A DNA stretch of 33,252 nt from Clostridia bacterium (GTDB taxonomy: Bacteria; Bacillota; Clostridia; Oscillospirales; Acutalibacteraceae). The translations under genes were made by a program, and so were the position numbers. How positions within the stretch are numbered: the first letter of the stretch is position 1; each line of letters begins with the position of its first letter. The stretch is taken from positions 1 through 33,252 of the forward strand of contig JAFTRF010000300.1 in the NCBI GenBank assembly GCA_017462405.1. The letters run 5' to 3'. Below are positions 3,568 through 33,252 of the stretch, piece after piece. Under the pieces are notes generated by a model, which was not told where the DNA came from, ran no database searches, and saw only the letters and a program-made list of their open reading frames with translations.

Positions 3568-4431
3568 ATGTTAGTATCTGCAAAAGAAATGCTCACCAAG
3601 GCCAAGGCCGGCCACTATGCGGTGGGTCAGTTCAACATCAACAATCTGGAGTGGACCAAGGCCATTCTGCAGACCGCTCAGGAGTGCAACTCCCCGGTCA
3701 TCCTCGGTGTGTCTGAGGGCGCAGGCAAGTACATGTGCGGCTTCAAGACCGTTGCCGCTATGGTCAAGGCCATGGTCGAGAATCTGAAGATCACCGTGCC
3801 GGTGGCTCTGCATCTGGACCACGGCAGCTATGAAGGTGCCAAGGCCTGCATCGAGGCTGGCTTCTCCTCCATCATGTTCGACGGCTCTCACTATGCCATC
3901 GATGAAAACGTTGCCAAGACCACTGAGCTGGTTGCCATCTGCGAAGAAAAGGGCATCTCCATCGAGGCTGAGGTTGGTGCCATCGGCGGCGAGGAAGACG
4001 GCGTTGTGGGTGCCGGCGAGTGCGCTGATCCCAACGAGTGCAAGATGATCGCCGATCTGGGCGTGACCATGCTGGCTGCCGGCATCGGCAACATCCACGG
4101 CAAGTATCCGGCAAACTGGGCTGGCCTGTCCTTCGAGACGCTGGCTGCAGTGCAGGAGAAGACCGGCGCAATGCCGCTGGTGCTGCACGGCGGTACCGGT
4201 ATCCCCGCCGAGCAGATCAAGAAGGCCATCGATCTGGGCGTGTCCAAGATCAACGTGAACACCGAGTGCCAGCTGGCTTTCGCCGCTGCTACCCGCGCAT
4301 ACGTTGAGGCCGGCAAGGACCTGAAGGGCAAGGGCTTCGACCCCCGCAAGCTGCTGGCTCCCGGTGTGGAAGCCATCAAGGCAACCGTAAAGGAAAAGAT
4401 GGAACTGTTCGGTTCCGTCAACAAGGCTTGA
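3568..4431 (+). CDS. fba: Class II fructose-bisphosphate aldolase
   Basis: A 287-aa zinc-dependent aldolase that cleaves fructose 1,6-bisphosphate to DHAP and glyceraldehyde 3-phosphate. HLDHG at residues 82-86 carries the catalytic Asp (D84) and a zinc His (H85). EAEVGAIGG, GNIHGKYP and LVLHGGTGIP supply further metal and phosphate contacts, and INVNTE is the C-terminal phosphate-binding strand. Length is normal for the family. The start at 3568 is set by GGAGG at 3554-3558; the frame is open further upstream but that would cross the promoter. Codon use is strongly biased (CTG, GGC, AAG), as expected for a highly expressed glycolytic gene. Single-gene unit with its own promoter and terminator. 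Confidence 0.97.
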   Translation: MLVSAKEMLTKAKAGHYAVGQFNINNLEWTKAILQTAQECNSPVILGVSEGAGKYMCGFKTVAAMVKAMVENLKITVPVALHLDHGSYEGAKACIEAGFSSIMFDGSHYAIDENVAKTTELVAICEEKGISIEAEVGAIGGEEDGVVGAGECADPNECKMIADLGVTMLAAGIGNIHGKYPANWAGLSFETLAAVQEKTGAMPLVLHGGTGIPAEQIKKAIDLGVSKINVNTECQLAFAAATRAYVEAGKDLKGKGFDPRKLLAPGVEAIKATVKEKMELFGSVNKA

Positions 4432-4598: not shown

Positions 4599-5021
4599 TT
4601 ACTTCTTTTTCAGTTGCGCGTTCAGTTTCGCCGTGGAACGGCGGATCATCAGATAAATGATGCCCCAGATGATTGCATAGGCAGTAATGAAAATCGCCGT
4701 AAAAACTGCAACGGCGATCCACTGAGAAGCCAGCCAGCCATTGACCAGATAGGTCAGGATATACGCCGCATACAGCACCAGTCCATGAATCAAAATAGCC
4801 CAGCACAGCGGCAGCCGCTCGATCTGATAGATCACACCGATGCCGCCGGCCAGAAAGGCCAGCACCGTAACGGTCAGGATGCCCTTGCAGACCGCACCGG
4901 GCGAAAGCGTATCCGCCACGCCCGTGGCCCCCAGCACACCGTAAATGATGGCCAGCACCACCGGCCCGCCGGACGCTGTCAGCAATCCGCGCATGATGAA
5001 ATTTTTGATGTGTTCTTTCAT
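4599..5021 (-). CDS. DUF3021 membrane protein, probable partner of the LytTR regulator
   Basis: A 140-aa integral membrane protein with four hydrophobic segments (about residues 17-35, 46-64, 73-93, 101-126) and a basic C-terminus ending in KLNAQLKKK. Length, four-helix layout and position next to a LytTR gene match the DUF3021 family. In streptococcal LytTR regulatory systems small membrane proteins encoded beside the regulator hold it inactive; that role here is inferred from arrangement. Its start ATG overlaps the regulator's stop by 4 bases (ATGA), so the two are translationally coupled. Confidence 0.85.
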   Translation of the reverse strand: MKEHIKNFIMRGLLTASGGPVVLAIIYGVLGATGVADTLSPGAVCKGILTVTVLAFLAGGIGVIYQIERLPLCWAILIHGLVLYAAYILTYLVNGWLASQWIAVAVFTAIFITAYAIIWGIIYLMIRRSTAKLNAQLKKK

Positions 5022-5461
5022 TTTGCATCAAACCTCCTCCGGATCTCGGCAAAGCACCGCCGGGACACATACTCCGTATAGCCGCACTTGAATACCGCAT
5101 TCACGCCACCGGAATACGTTGCCGCAAAACGCTCGATCCGACGCTCGTTGGCCAGCGCGGACTTGTTGATGCGGATAAAGTATGCAGGCAGCATTTTCTC
5201 CAGTTCATACAGCCGCTGCTTCAGCCGCAGCTGCGCGCCGGTGGTGTCGATGGCATACGTCCTGCCGTCAATGGTGACGATGCACTCGATCCGGGTCAGC
5301 GGCAACGGCACGGTGTCGTCCTCGGTATATGCGATGATTTTGTCTGCACCAGTGTACTGCATCACCAGCGTCTCGATTTTGTCCGTCAGCACCGAGCGTT
5401 CATGCACTGTTGCCACGATTTCTTCTTCTTTGTCCCGGTCAATACACAGCCGGAATTTCAT
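5018..5461 (-). CDS. LytTR-family DNA-binding transcriptional regulator
   Basis: A 147-aa protein with a C-terminal LytTR domain (about residues 50-145) and no receiver domain. Typical LytTR features are the strand pair IDGRTYAIDTTGAQLRLKQ, the helix LYELEKMLPAYFIRINKSALANERRI and the final strand near residue 125. These proteins bind direct repeats with a 12-13 bp spacer, and such a site lies upstream of its promoter (5679-5708). The ATG at 5461 is chosen because GGAGG stands 8 bases upstream; the longer frame start has no good site. It is co-transcribed with the DUF3021 gene. Probably autoregulated and also controlling the divergent gene at 5806. Confidence 0.92.
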   Translation of the reverse strand: MKFRLCIDRDKEEEIVATVHERSVLTDKIETLVMQYTGADKIIAYTEDDTVPLPLTRIECIVTIDGRTYAIDTTGAQLRLKQRLYELEKMLPAYFIRINKSALANERRIERFAATYSGGVNAVFKCGYTEYVSRRCFAEIRRRFDAK

Positions 5462-5518
5462 GACTTCGCCCTCCTGTCGCAATGTGGTCATCTTAAGGCT
5501 GAGCGATACCGCCAGCTT

Positions 5519-5561
5519 CTAACCTCTTCCGGCTCGCCGCAGGCGAGTCGGAAGAGGTTAG
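5519..5561. repeat. Long hairpin and repeat copy in the LytTR leader
   Basis: A 20-bp inverted repeat (5519-5538 with 5542-5561, one G-U, 3-base loop) lies in the untranslated leader of the LytTR operon. It has no T-tract, so it is not an ordinary terminator. Just beyond it, 5582-5597 is a 16-mer (cttaagttgacagcat) that recurs at 10414-10429, linking this stretch to the palindromic repeat region there. Confidence 0.75.
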
Positions 5562-5640
5562 AGACTGCGGCTGCACAGTTACTTAAGTTGACAGCATCGC
5601 CCCCTGCTCAAAATACGCATAATTGATTTTCTGTGTTTAC

Positions 5641-5646
5641 AGTATA
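5641..5646 (-). promoter_or_regulatory. -10 element of the LytTR operon
   Basis: On the minus strand TATACT preceded by TGC (extended -10). No good -35 is present at 17 bases, which fits a promoter that needs an activator; the LytTR site is centred about 60 bases upstream of the expected start. Confidence 0.6.
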
Positions 5647-5678
5647 GCACAGAAAAACACCCAAGGGAAGCACCGCGC

Positions 5679-5708
5679 TTCAACGGTCATTTTCCGGCAA
5701 TAAACGGT
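5679..5708. promoter_or_regulatory. LytTR operator (two direct repeats)
   Basis: Read on the minus strand, ACCGTTTAT (5700-5708) and ACCGTTGAA (5679-5687) are separated by 12 bases. The known LytTR half-site is [TA][AC][CA]GTTN[AG][TG]; the first matches 9/9 and the second 8/9. Around them a longer core, acggtcatttt on the plus strand, is repeated with a 21-bp period, two helical turns. The site lies between the divergent promoters of the LytTR operon and the gene at 5806. Confidence 0.82.
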
Positions 5709-5737
5709 CATTTTGCAGAAAAATTAAGATCGATAAC

Positions 5738-5766
5738 TTGACTTATCCTTTAAGATATGCTATAAT
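5738..5766 (+). promoter_or_regulatory. Promoter of the membrane TPR/NPCBM-like gene
   Basis: TTGACT (5738-5743), 17-base spacer, TATAAT (5761-5766) with extended TGC. Near consensus, 30 bases from the LytTR operator. Confidence 0.9.
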
Positions 5767-5805: not shown

Positions 5806-7221
5806 ATGTTTCGTTCTGCTCACACACCGGGCTCTGCCCCACATACAGCTCATTCCCTTCGGCGGAAGTGCATCTGGATATCCGTAGCCGCGGTGGTACT
5901 GTTCTGCGCTGTCCTGCTGGTACGGAAATATGTGCAGCTGAACCGGGACGTGCCGTCTATTGTGTACGGAAGCTTCAATACCGCACAGGTCACGGAATGG
6001 TACGAGCAGTGGGTCGCCCACGATCCCATTGCCAACCGTATTGTTGCCGTCCATGCAGAAATTGCGCTGGAAGCCCAGCAAGCGGCCATTCTGGATGATA
6101 TCAACGGCCACTACAAGTACTTCCGGCAAATTGCCTTTTATGCCGGGTGCGGCGGGTCCCTGCAAAAGATGGTGTCCCGTCATGTGGCAGACACCGTGGA
6201 TGAGTTGTATGCACGGAGCAATCCGGCCACCGGAGAATACCATGAGGATGGTTTTGTTCTGCTGAAGGAATTTCAGAAATATCCGCTGACTCCGGATGCA
6301 CAGCGCAAGGTCGCATCCGCACTGGAAGAATTTTCGCTGGACCGCACCTACGACCGCAGTGTGCGGTTCTACGGGCAAGGCGATCTGGACGGCGCACTGG
6401 ATGAATTGCGTCCGCTGCTGGAAAAAGTGCCGGATTACCGGGATGCCGCTGAACTGTTTCCGAAGTGGCAGGCGGAATATCTGGAACAAGTACGTGCGGA
6501 TATTACGGATGCCTTATCCCGGCAAAAATACAACTACGCCACGTCTACCTTGTATTTTGCAACGGCCCGGCTGCACGACGCTCCCGGATTCCCGGAATTT
6601 GCACAGCAGGTATTGGCCGAATACCGTGCCTATGTGGAACCCATCATCGAACCGCTGCTTCGGCAAAGCCTTGCCCGCGAAGGCTACCGCGGGTCATTTG
6701 CACTGTCTACCTCCATATCTCATGCCGCACTGGTTGCACCGGAAGATGCTTTCTTCGCAAAATGGAATCAGCTGATCCGCAAAAGCAGATACGCCGTCCC
6801 GCGGCTCGTGATCACACGTTCACCGGAAATTCTCGCCACGCACGCAACGCCGGGCACTTTCCGGGACAACTGCGGCAATACGTATGACACATTGAACCTG
6901 TACAGAACGTCGGGCAGCGGACAGCTGTATACAAAGGTGGATTTTAATACCGATCGTCTGTACGGTACCATCGCCGTAGCAGAAGGCAGCGGCAATGGCA
7001 CCGCCCTTGTCGAAGTGCTTCGCAACAATGAAGTTTTGTATCGTCAGACACTTCATGCATCTTCTCCGCCATCTCCACTGGATGTGGAAGTATATCTCCA
7101 GACAAACGGCTCCTTCAATGTCACCATCCGCATCACCCAGACCGGCAGTGAACCGCTATCTTTGCTGCTGCATGATATGTATTTCACCGAAACCGACCGA
7201 AACTCCTGTATTATACAATAA
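5806..7221 (+). CDS. Membrane-anchored protein with TPR-like and NPCBM-like parts, function unknown
   Basis: A 471-aa protein. Residues 22-41 form one membrane helix after a basic N-terminus, so the rest is probably extracytoplasmic. The middle is helical; residues about 190-225 (GDLDGALDELRPLLEKVPDYRDAAEL, in part) look like a TPR-type repeat. The C-terminal ~120 residues (after DNCGNTYDTLNLY) are beta-rich and resemble the NPCBM carbohydrate-binding fold, an inference from pattern. No catalytic motif is visible. AAGGAG at 5791-5796 is 9 bases before the ATG. It is divergent from the LytTR-DUF3021 pair and shares its operator region, so it is the best candidate target of that regulator. Confidence 0.8.
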   Translation: MFRSAHTPGSAPHTAHSLRRKCIWISVAAVVLFCAVLLVRKYVQLNRDVPSIVYGSFNTAQVTEWYEQWVAHDPIANRIVAVHAEIALEAQQAAILDDINGHYKYFRQIAFYAGCGGSLQKMVSRHVADTVDELYARSNPATGEYHEDGFVLLKEFQKYPLTPDAQRKVASALEEFSLDRTYDRSVRFYGQGDLDGALDELRPLLEKVPDYRDAAELFPKWQAEYLEQVRADITDALSRQKYNYATSTLYFATARLHDAPGFPEFAQQVLAEYRAYVEPIIEPLLRQSLAREGYRGSFALSTSISHAALVAPEDAFFAKWNQLIRKSRYAVPRLVITRSPEILATHATPGTFRDNCGNTYDTLNLYRTSGSGQLYTKVDFNTDRLYGTIAVAEGSGNGTALVEVLRNNEVLYRQTLHASSPPSPLDVEVYLQTNGSFNVTIRITQTGSEPLSLLLHDMYFTETDRNSCIIQ

Positions 7222-29965: not shown

Positions 29966-30769
29966 TTATTTCTCAAACGGACGCACCGGAACAATGCAGT
30001 GCTGGGGGCAGACGCTTTCGCATTTGCCGCAGCCGGTACATTTTGCCGGATCCACGGAAGCCAGATTGTTGACCACCTTGATGGCACCGGCTTCGCAATT
30101 CTTCTGACACTTCATACAGCCGATGCAGCCTGCGGTGCAGACCTTGCGGGTGATGGCACCCTTGTCCTTGTTGGAACAGCGCACCATTGCGATCGCATCG
30201 TTGGGCACGATGGCGATCAGCTGCTTGGGGCAGGCCTTCGCACACTTGCCGCAGGCGATGCACTTGTCAGGGTCTACGTGGGCAATGCCGTTGCACACGG
30301 AAATGGCACCTTCGGGGCAGACCGCCGCGCAATCACCGAAGCCGATGCAGCCGTACGAGCAGCTGCCCGGACCGCGGAACATCTGAACCGCCGCCGCACA
30401 GGTGCGGATGCCGTCGTATTCCATCCGGTCGGAGGTCCGCTCACAGGTACCCATGCAGCGCACGACCGCCGTCTTGGGCTGCACGTCCACAGCTTCTGTG
30501 CCGAGGATGGCTGCAATGGCTACTGCGGCATCCTTGCCGCCGGGTGCGCACAGACCGGGCTGTGCTTCGCCCTTGGCCAGTGCCGCCGCATAACCGGAGC
30601 AACCGGAGAAGCCACAGGCACCGCAGTTGGCACCGGGCAGGGCCGCCTCGATGGCTTCGGCCTTTTCATCCACCGGCACCGCCATCAGCACAGATGCGAT
30701 GGCCAGACCCGCACCGGCCACCAGACCGATGCCGGACACCAGCAAAATTGCCAGTACAATGGGATTCAT
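29966..30769 (-). CDS. rnfB: Rnf complex subunit RnfB (ferredoxin-type)
   Basis: A 267-aa iron-sulfur protein, the electron entry subunit of the Rnf ferredoxin:NAD+ oxidoreductase. A membrane anchor (residues 3-30) leads to the four-Cys domain CGACGFSGC...C near residues 47-75. Then come ferredoxin-type cluster motifs: CSYGCIGFGDCAAVCP, CIACGKCAKACP, CTAGCIGCMKCQKNC and CTGCGKCESVCP. The number of clusters fits the longer clostridial RnfB. AAAGGAG precedes the start. Last gene of the operon. Confidence 0.95.
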   Translation of the reverse strand: MNPIVLAILLVSGIGLVAGAGLAIASVLMAVPVDEKAEAIEAALPGANCGACGFSGCSGYAAALAKGEAQPGLCAPGGKDAAVAIAAILGTEAVDVQPKTAVVRCMGTCERTSDRMEYDGIRTCAAAVQMFRGPGSCSYGCIGFGDCAAVCPEGAISVCNGIAHVDPDKCIACGKCAKACPKQLIAIVPNDAIAMVRCSNKDKGAITRKVCTAGCIGCMKCQKNCEAGAIKVVNNLASVDPAKCTGCGKCESVCPQHCIVPVRPFEK

Positions 30770-30788
30770 ACTTCAACCGCTCCTTTCC

Positions 30789-31403
30789 TCAGGCGAACAG
30801 ACCGTCCACCACGCCCTGGAAGCCCAGGAACGACACTGCCAGCAGCGATGCGGCGATCAGCGTAATGGGCAGTCCGCGCAGGGACTTGGGGATGTCGCAG
30901 GTTTCCAGCCGGCCGCGTACACCGGCGAACAGCACCATCGCCAGCATAAAGCCCAGACCGGAGCCAAATGCGTTGACCAGCGCGTGCGCATAGCCGTAGG
31001 AGGCCGTTTCTTCCGCCTTGGTGATGACCAGCATCGTCACGCCCAGCACGGCGCAGTTGGTGGTGATCAGCGGCAGATAAATGCCCAGCGCATTGTACAG
31101 GGACGGGACGAATTTCTTCAGGAAAATTTCGATGAGCTGCACCAGCGCGGCGATGATGAGGATATACACCACCGTCTGCAGGTATTCCAGTTCATTGGGC
31201 ACCAGTACGTAATAGTAAATGGGCCACGTCACCGCCGTGGACAGCACCATGACGAAGGTCACGGCCGCACTCATGCCAACTGCGGTGTTCAGCTTCTTGG
31301 ACACGCCCAGGAACGGACAGATGCCCAGAAACTTGCACAGGATGTAGTTTTCCGTCAGGATGGCTGCCAGAAAGACCGCCACCAACGATTTAAGCATTTC
31401 CAT
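30789..31403 (-). CDS. rnfA: Rnf complex subunit RnfA
   Basis: A 204-aa membrane protein with six hydrophobic segments. RnfA pairs with RnfE to form the inverted six-helix core that holds a [2Fe-2S] cluster in the membrane; the Cys in ENYILCKFLGICPFLG and in LPLITTNCAVLG are the expected ligands. The start at 31403 has AAGGAGG 9 bases upstream and overlaps the rnfE end by 14 bases, so a longer start is not needed. 19 bases separate it from rnfB. Confidence 0.96.
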   Translation of the reverse strand: MEMLKSLVAVFLAAILTENYILCKFLGICPFLGVSKKLNTAVGMSAAVTFVMVLSTAVTWPIYYYVLVPNELEYLQTVVYILIIAALVQLIEIFLKKFVPSLYNALGIYLPLITTNCAVLGVTMLVITKAEETASYGYAHALVNAFGSGLGFMLAMVLFAGVRGRLETCDIPKSLRGLPITLIAASLLAVSFLGFQGVVDGLFA

Positions 31404-32091
31404 TGTCAGCCACCTCCTTGGATGCACATTCGGTTTTGCTGCACTTGTCCTTCATCGGGCAGCCGCCGCAGCCTGCGGTCTGCTTTTCGCCGTCCTCGCC
31501 GGCCAGCTTGTTGGCCAGTGCCACCAGCAGACCGAATACGAAGAAGCCGCCGGGAGCCAGTACGAAGATCAGCATGGGTTCCACCACGCCGAAAGTTACG
31601 TCGATGCCAAACCACGTGCCCGCACCCAGAATTTCACGGATGGAGCCCATGAGCAGCAGTGCGCAGGTAAAGCCCACGCCCATGCCCAGACCGTCCATGA
31701 TGGAGGGCAGGACCTTGTTTTTGCTGGCGAACATTTCTGCACGGCCGAGAATGATGCAGTTCACCACGATCAGCGGCAGATAAATGCCCAGCGCTTCGTC
31801 CAGTGCCGGTGCAAACGCCTTGACGATCATCTGCACCATCGACACAAAGCCGGCGATGATGGTGATATAGGCCGGGATGCGCACCTTGTCCGGAATGACG
31901 TTCCGCAGCAGCGAAATGACCGCATTGGAGCAGATCAGCACCAGCGTAGCCGCCGCACCCATGCCGATGGCGTTGCTGGCCGCGGTAGTGACTGCCAGCG
32001 TGGGGCAGGTACCCAGCACCAGCCGCAGTACGGGGTTTTCTTTGATGATACCTTTGGAAAATTCGTGGAACAGACCGTTTTTCTTTTTCAT
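31390..32091 (-). CDS. rnfE: Rnf complex subunit RnfE with Cys-rich C-terminal tail
   Basis: A 233-aa membrane protein. The core is standard RnfE: ENPVLRLVLGTCPTLAVT and IYLPLIVVNCIILGRAE carry the cluster Cys residues, and APGGFFVFGLLVAL is the last helix. After it a soluble tail of about 35 residues contains CGGCPMKDKCSKTEC, spacing C-x2-C-x5-C-x4-C, which could bind a further metal centre. The ATG at 32091 follows the rnfG stop by one base. Confidence 0.95.
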   Translation of the reverse strand: MKKKNGLFHEFSKGIIKENPVLRLVLGTCPTLAVTTAASNAIGMGAAATLVLICSNAVISLLRNVIPDKVRIPAYITIIAGFVSMVQMIVKAFAPALDEALGIYLPLIVVNCIILGRAEMFASKNKVLPSIMDGLGMGVGFTCALLLMGSIREILGAGTWFGIDVTFGVVEPMLIFVLAPGGFFVFGLLVALANKLAGEDGEKQTAGCGGCPMKDKCSKTECASKEVADNGNA

Positions 32092-32092
32092 G

Positions 32093-32659
32093 TCAGTTCT
32101 CCGCTCCTTCCTGTGCGCGGAAAATGGTGACCGCGTCGTTGACCGCCTTGACCACCGCGTTGGAGCTGATGGTGGCGCTGGAAATCGCCTCGATGCCGCC
32201 TTCCGCCGGGGCTGCCGTACCGAACTTGTACACCGTATACTTGTTGTTGCCGGGGATCATGCCCAGAAACTGCCCCCAGAAGCTTTCCTTGGTGCAGTTG
32301 GCGCCCAGACCAACGGTTTCGTTGTGGCTGAGGATGCTCACGCCGGTCACTTCGCCGGTGACAGCGATGCCGGTCATCACGCGCACCTTGCCGCCGTAGC
32401 CGCTGGTTTCCGTAATGATGACGTAACCGGCCTTGGCACCGTCGGCATCCTTGCCGATGTACAGCGTATCGCTGAGGGCTTCAAAGCTTTCTGCCGTGGT
32501 CAGCACCTCGGCGCGGGCACTCTGCTCCGCTTCTGCCGCCAGCTGTGCAATGCGCTCCTTGGTCAGTGCATCCACACCTCCCAGACCAGCGGTAACGATC
32601 AGACAGATGATCATCAGGGTCAGGGCCGGGCGCAGAATGGTTTTCAGATCCAGTTTCAT
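32093..32659 (-). CDS. rnfG: Rnf complex subunit RnfG (covalent FMN)
   Basis: A 188-aa protein with one N-terminal membrane helix (about 9-30) and an outward FMN-binding domain. SILSHNETVGLGANC and AISSATISSNAVV are the family signatures; the Thr in SSATIS is the expected site of phosphoester-linked FMN. The ATG overlaps the rnfD stop by 4 bases. Confidence 0.95.
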   Translation of the reverse strand: MKLDLKTILRPALTLMIICLIVTAGLGGVDALTKERIAQLAAEAEQSARAEVLTTAESFEALSDTLYIGKDADGAKAGYVIITETSGYGGKVRVMTGIAVTGEVTGVSILSHNETVGLGANCTKESFWGQFLGMIPGNNKYTVYKFGTAAPAEGGIEAISSATISSNAVVKAVNDAVTIFRAQEGAEN

Positions 32660-33252
32660 GCCGCCTTGCCCCCTTTCTTCAGCGTGCCAAACGCCTTGGG
32701 ACGGGTCAGGTCCTCGATGTGCGGCACCAGTACGTTCATCAGCACGATGGCGTAGGACACACCCTCCGACAGCGCGCCAAACTGGCGGATGATGACCGTG
32801 ATCAGACCACAGCCGATGCCGAACACCCAGCGGCCGGCCGGGGTCACGGGCGAGGTAGTGTAGTCCGTTGCCATGAAGATGGCGCCGAGCATCACACCGC
32901 CGGTCATAACGGCTGCCAGCGGATCGCCGCCCAGCAGGAGGGTCATCAGTGCCACCGTACCGATAAAGGTCAGCGGGATCACTGGGGAAATCACCCGGCG
33001 CATCAGCAGATAGGCAAAGCCGATCAGCAGCGCCAGCACGCAGGTTTCACCGATGCAGCCGCCGTGGATGCCCAGAAACAGCCGCAGGTTGCTGACTTCC
33101 TCGCCCCGGCCCAGCTGGACCAGCGGAGTTGCCGAGGTCACGGCATCCACCACGGAGGACGATTTATAGTAGAACGGCTCCACCCAGTTGGACATGGCCG
33201 CCGGGAAGCTCACCAGCAGAATCACACGCGCCGTGGCCGCCGGGTTCACGAA
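32656..33252 (-). CDS. rnfD: Rnf complex subunit RnfD (5' part beyond window edge)
   Basis: The C-terminal ~198 residues of RnfD; the frame is open through base 33252 (FVNPAATARV...), so the start and rnfC lie to the right. DAVTSATPLVQL contains the Thr expected to carry FMN. Five or so membrane segments follow (for example VALMTLLLGGDPLAAVMTGG and FMATDYTTSPVTPAGRWVFG, both typical of RnfD). Order on the minus strand is D-G-E-A-B, the usual clostridial arrangement. Confidence 0.95.
   Translation of the reverse strand, partial: FVNPAATARVILLVSFPAAMSNWVEPFYYKSSSVVDAVTSATPLVQLGRGEEVSNLRLFLGIHGGCIGETCVLALLIGFAYLLMRRVISPVIPLTFIGTVALMTLLLGGDPLAAVMTGGVMLGAIFMATDYTTSPVTPAGRWVFGIGCGLITVIIRQFGALSEGVSYAIVLMNVLVPHIEDLTRPKAFGTLKKGGKAA

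Follow-up and report, generated by a model that had tools for sequence, protein, structure and literature searches.

A LytTR-DUF3021 regulatory pair with a conserved operator in gut Clostridia, and an ABC-2 exporter as its probable target in trans

The stretch of DNA analyzed here, referred to as the window, covers 33,252 nucleotides of contig JAFTRF010000300.1 from a Clostridia bacterium (assembly GCA_017462405.1). On its minus strand lies a small operon for a LytTR regulator and a DUF3021 membrane protein, preceded by a candidate operator and facing a divergent gene, with the following features:

4599-5021, minus strand: DUF3021 membrane protein, 140 aa (Pfam PF11457, 3e-22)
5018-5461, minus strand: LytTR regulator, 147 aa, without a receiver domain (Pfam PF04397, 7e-14)
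5479-5601, minus strand: copy of a palindromic, MITE-like repeat in the leader, including a hairpin at 5518-5562
5641-5649, minus strand: extended -10 of the LytTR-DUF3021 operon, TGCTATACT, 29 nt downstream of the operator
5679-5687, minus strand: proximal LytTR half-site, ACCGTTGAA, 8/9 to WMMGTTNRK, with ACCGnT kept at orthologues
5700-5708, minus strand: distal LytTR half-site, ACCGTTTAT, 9/9 to WMMGTTNRK, with nCCGTTnA kept at orthologues
5738-5766, plus strand: near-consensus divergent promoter, TTGACT-17-TATAAT, its -35 lying 29 bp from the operator
5806-7221, plus strand: divergent gene, an orphan of 471 aa with an N-terminal membrane anchor

The two coding regions overlap in the ATGA at 5018-5021, where the LytTR stop meets the DUF3021 start, and we placed the LytTR start at ATG 5461 rather than at 5491 because an AGGAGG stands at 5475-5470. 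Most orthologues of the regulator (52-67% identity) align from residue 1, and LytTR is the sole domain that Pfam detects in the 147-aa protein. No histidine kinase partner was found in the locus, going by the list of open reading frames and Pfam searches of the neighboring genes, and the layout first proposed for this locus, that of a LytTR Regulatory System (LRS) with a regulator and a membrane partner, is upheld. The defining features that sequence can test are all present: the regulator lacks a receiver, DUF3021 (DUF2154 being the alternative) is encoded directly downstream, and 9-bp direct repeats with a gap of 12 bp (11-13 bp by definition) lie ~10 bp upstream of the -35 region. On that footing the pair is an LRS. 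The preliminary description had also taken DUF3021 for a different membrane family from that of the streptococcal systems, and this was mistaken, as DUF3021 is a founding family and one of the two membrane domains named for the LRS of S. mutans (PMC6193735). The membrane proteins of S. mutans have been shown to inhibit expression of their own operons (PMC6193735), and the DUF3021 protein is probably the inhibitor or sensor partner of LytTR. Elsewhere in the genome (G000), the only other LytTR protein is encoded on contig C284 (L001), as a receiver-LytTR protein beside a kinase gene, AgrA/AgrC-like by sequence. The end of the window (29966-33249, minus strand) holds what its translations suggest is an Rnf complex-like operon (RnfB, A, E, G, D).

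The direct repeat ahead of the pair (5679-5708, minus strand) has a 9-12-9 layout, and the positions of its half-sites, their 12-bp spacing and their consensus matches were confirmed. The same is true of the operon promoter with only an extended -10, and of the divergent promoter, whose hexamers occupy 5738-5743 and 5761-5766. No good -35 was found for the LytTR-DUF3021 promoter; the 29 nt between repeat and extended -10 amount to 10 bp, a hexamer and 13 bp. The window holds no other pair of half-sites 12 bp apart that fits the consensus at 17 or more of the 18 positions. Since Markov shuffles of the window yield ~0.2 such sites by chance, the match to the consensus taken alone is only mildly unusual, and is suggestive rather than strong evidence for an operator.

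The operator can be assessed by comparison. When 84,980 species genomes were searched for the LytTR protein, 54 orthologous loci were obtained at the 52-67% identity given above, mostly in metagenome-assembled genomes (MAGs) from ruminant guts that belong to Oscillospiraceae and other Clostridia, and at every one of the 54 LytTR is followed by DUF3021. LytTR is the first gene at 32 loci, and in 32/32 it is preceded by direct repeats that follow nCCGTTnA-12-ACCGnT, usually 86-101 bp 5' of the start codon, with a weak first half-site at L050 and L063. The repeats are therefore conserved upstream of orthologous pairs, whereas a lack of such conservation was what the preliminary description had named as refuting its proposal. 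A TGnTAnnnT lies exactly 29 or 30 nt downstream of the repeat at 30 of these 32 loci, and a pattern for the complete signature matched once in the reversed control of ~447 kb, made up of all these loci and the window. With the published consensus alone, many of the orthologous sites are poorly told from shuffles; it is geometry and conservation, not the consensus match, that carry the weight for the predicted operator, and the comparison across orthologues makes it secure. In a broader set of relatives DUF3021 is present in 25/98 genomes, and a LytTR gene adjoins it at 27/30 of the DUF3021 loci fetched, many of them with similar repeats.

It should be considered whether the repeats are instead bound by the receiver-LytTR response regulator on C284, which at least supplies the genome with a second LytTR domain. 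That gene belongs to what its sequence marks as an AgrA/AgrC-like pair, however, and it is the LytTR-DUF3021 pair that the operator accompanies from genome to genome, making this reading highly improbable.

The operator lies between two start codons, and the divergent gene had accordingly been put forward as a new candidate target. A reading in which the common operator mainly controls 5806-7221 draws on this position and on the near-consensus divergent promoter, but such a promoter would need no activator, its -35 is 29 bp away rather than ~10, and across orthologues the operator keeps a fixed spacing relative to the LytTR promoter. Neither Pfam nor NCBIfam gave an accepted match for the 471-aa protein, which has a single distant relative (21% identity) among 97 other genomes searched, and no homologue was present beside any orthologous LytTR locus examined. 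The divergent gene was rejected as a conserved target on this non-conservation, and control of it as the main role of the operator appears improbable. The gene is most plausibly a bystander outside the system, with a local effect of the operator conceivable in this one genome.

A different target is indicated by the loci at which LytTR is not the first gene. There are 21 of these, and in all of them an ABC ATPase-permease pair (ABC ATPase and ABC-2 permease, ~242-255 aa each) precedes LytTR in one operon. The repeat and a TGnTA-type promoter stand ahead of the ATPase gene, ~1.57 kb 5' of LytTR, in 21/21 when the relaxed pattern is included.

The genome of the window (2.16 Mb, 72% complete, 3.8% contamination) was also scanned. 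A genome scan for the 30-bp site, which had been suggested as a check, was uninformative by itself, giving 14 matches with 3 mismatches allowed against 13 in the reversed control; with the 29-nt spacing and the -10 added, it led to a site on contig C72. This pattern of half-sites, 29 nt and -10 has three perfect matches, in the window, on C72 and on C274, and the version with 30-nt spacing has no match. The C274 match (CCGGTGCAG...) was discounted, being unlike the operator despite its perfect fit to the pattern. On C72 the sequence is ACCGTTTAC-12-ACCGTTCAG-29-TGCTATACT, its -10 being identical to that of the window; an ABC ATPase gene begins, with ATG, 40 nt beyond the end of this -10 and is followed by a permease gene. 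With the permeases of the fused operons the C72 permease shares 61-72% identity, which marks the C72 exporter as the orthologue of theirs, in a genome to which binning alone ties both C72 and C188.

We extended the exporter search to the 33 genomes with the LytTR-first arrangement, own genome included. It returned 19 permease loci in 18 genomes; the other 15/33, all MAGs, gave no exporter match. At three loci (L135, L138 and L143, on the contigs of L075, L033 and L049) the exporter lies directly 3' of DUF3021 in the same operon. Sixteen exporter loci are unlinked, and the full signature stands ahead of the ATPase gene in 12 of them by the strict pattern, with 0 in the reversed control. Three more match the relaxed pattern (L132 and L144 well, L133 weakly), and L142 is an exporter locus without a site by either pattern. 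The same target is indicated twice, independently: by the fused operons of sister lineages and by the common operator of genomes in which the genes are split. A DrrAB-like ABC-2 exporter is, on this well-supported comparison, the probable conserved target, and in this genome it would be a target in trans.

The model that we favor, and hold with considerable confidence, is an LRS in which a DUF3021-inhibited LytTR activates its own operon and the exporter operon on C72. It draws on observed domains, operon overlap, operator, promoter geometry, conservation and the same site before the exporter; the inhibition by DUF3021, the sign of regulation, the signal and the cargo are what we infer. DUF3021 in the membrane would keep LytTR inactive until an envelope signal frees it, and the freed regulator would then bind both direct repeats. 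Because these sit ~10 bp 5' of the -35 region of a promoter with only an extended -10, LytTR would be expected to activate its own operon, giving positive feedback by activation rather than repression, and would likewise activate the exporter operon of ATPase and permease, whose operator and promoter have a common architecture with its own. Geometry alone does not give the sign of regulation, and LytTR might conversely repress its own operon, with DUF3021 as co-repressor or sink. A binding site upstream of a promoter with no -35 is, however, in keeping with activation, and five of five LRS of S. mutans are autoactivating and restrained by their membrane protein (PMC6193735), so we regard repression as quite improbable.

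The leader of the operon is abnormally long owing to a repeated palindromic element that was missed in the preliminary description. From -10 to LytTR start it measures 179 nt, against about 18-33 nt at orthologues (L036 excepted), an element of ~120 bp being inserted between the promoter and the LytTR start. The same genome has about ten further copies, full or partial (on G000 contigs C216, C236, C46, C290, C310, C176, C194, C35, C130 and C128), and none was found in 59 relatives. The element measures ~120-240 bp, with ends near GTCAACTTAAG and CTTAAGTTGAC and inner stems of CTTCCCC..GGGGAAG; full copies of ~240 bp carry two inner stem modules, and the window copy is an internally deleted form. 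A target-site duplication was looked for, and the sequences CACAG and GACAG flanking the insert hint at one; as the repeated core does not extend over ~30 additional bases (5602-5631), we do not claim it. Folding of the leader RNA gives -87 kcal/mol (z = -5.9). A terminator role for the large hairpin was considered and rejected, as no T-run follows it and it is part of the repeated element. The inserted element could disturb expression of this LytTR-DUF3021 copy. At the close orthologue L036 the operator is displaced to -163 and the leader has been lengthened independently, with another hairpin (ACCATGATTGCG..GCAATCATGGT) between -10 and LytTR, within ~95 bp upstream of position 4001.

A broader reading, which we put forward tentatively and consider somewhat doubtful as a whole, is that one LRS clade in gut Oscillospiraceae and related Clostridia represents a compact regulon of itself and one ABC-2 exporter. 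It would have been repeatedly fused and split (ABC-LytTR-DUF3021, LytTR-DUF3021-ABC or unlinked), with operator and promoter nearly always kept. The membrane protein may sense the substrate or activity of the exporter, and with the mobile palindromic element in the leader this genome may have gained control of the feedback at the RNA level as well. It was in 2018 that LRS were put forward as a novel sensory class, and the functional work that we found concerns S. mutans. Here, a large set of LytTR-DUF3021 pairs in gut bacteria offers a sharp, alignable operator and a specific ABC-2 exporter target, the exporter operon being joined to the regulator genes in some genomes and, it appears, controlled at a distance in others. 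The question of what LRS sense thereby becomes directly testable through exporter induction.

Compared with known systems, the exporter resembles the ABC-2 drug exporters of the DrrAB type, in that drrA is the best NCBIfam match of the ATPase and the permease matches ABC2_membrane, although both score below the curated drr cut-offs. The S. aureus pair SACOL_RS12395/RS12400, described from sequence only, is likewise a two-gene LytTR-DUF3021 operon with LRS repeats (PMC6193735). The LRS of S. mutans (HdrRM, BrsRM, SMU_433/434 and SMU_1070c/1069c) share with the present pair a receiver-less LytTR protein with the membrane partner directly downstream, and 9-bp direct repeats with a 12-bp gap ~10 bp upstream of -35, often with an extended -10; HdrR was shown there to activate its own operon via the repeats (PMC6193735). 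Both the membrane family and the exporter link have precedents, because that work names DUF3021 and reports two of five S. mutans LRS types as co-transcribed with ABC transporter genes (PMC6193735). The repeat consensus differs, being nCCGTTnA / ACCGnT here and ACCnCTTAT in S. mutans (PMC6193735), and so do the hosts, which here are gut Oscillospiraceae and other Clostridia. The exporter operon in this genome is, unlike those of S. mutans, unlinked and apparently controlled in trans, and the leader carries a repeat element. What is new is thus the clade-wide operator, the exporter as a probable trans target here and in about a dozen other genomes, and the leader insert.
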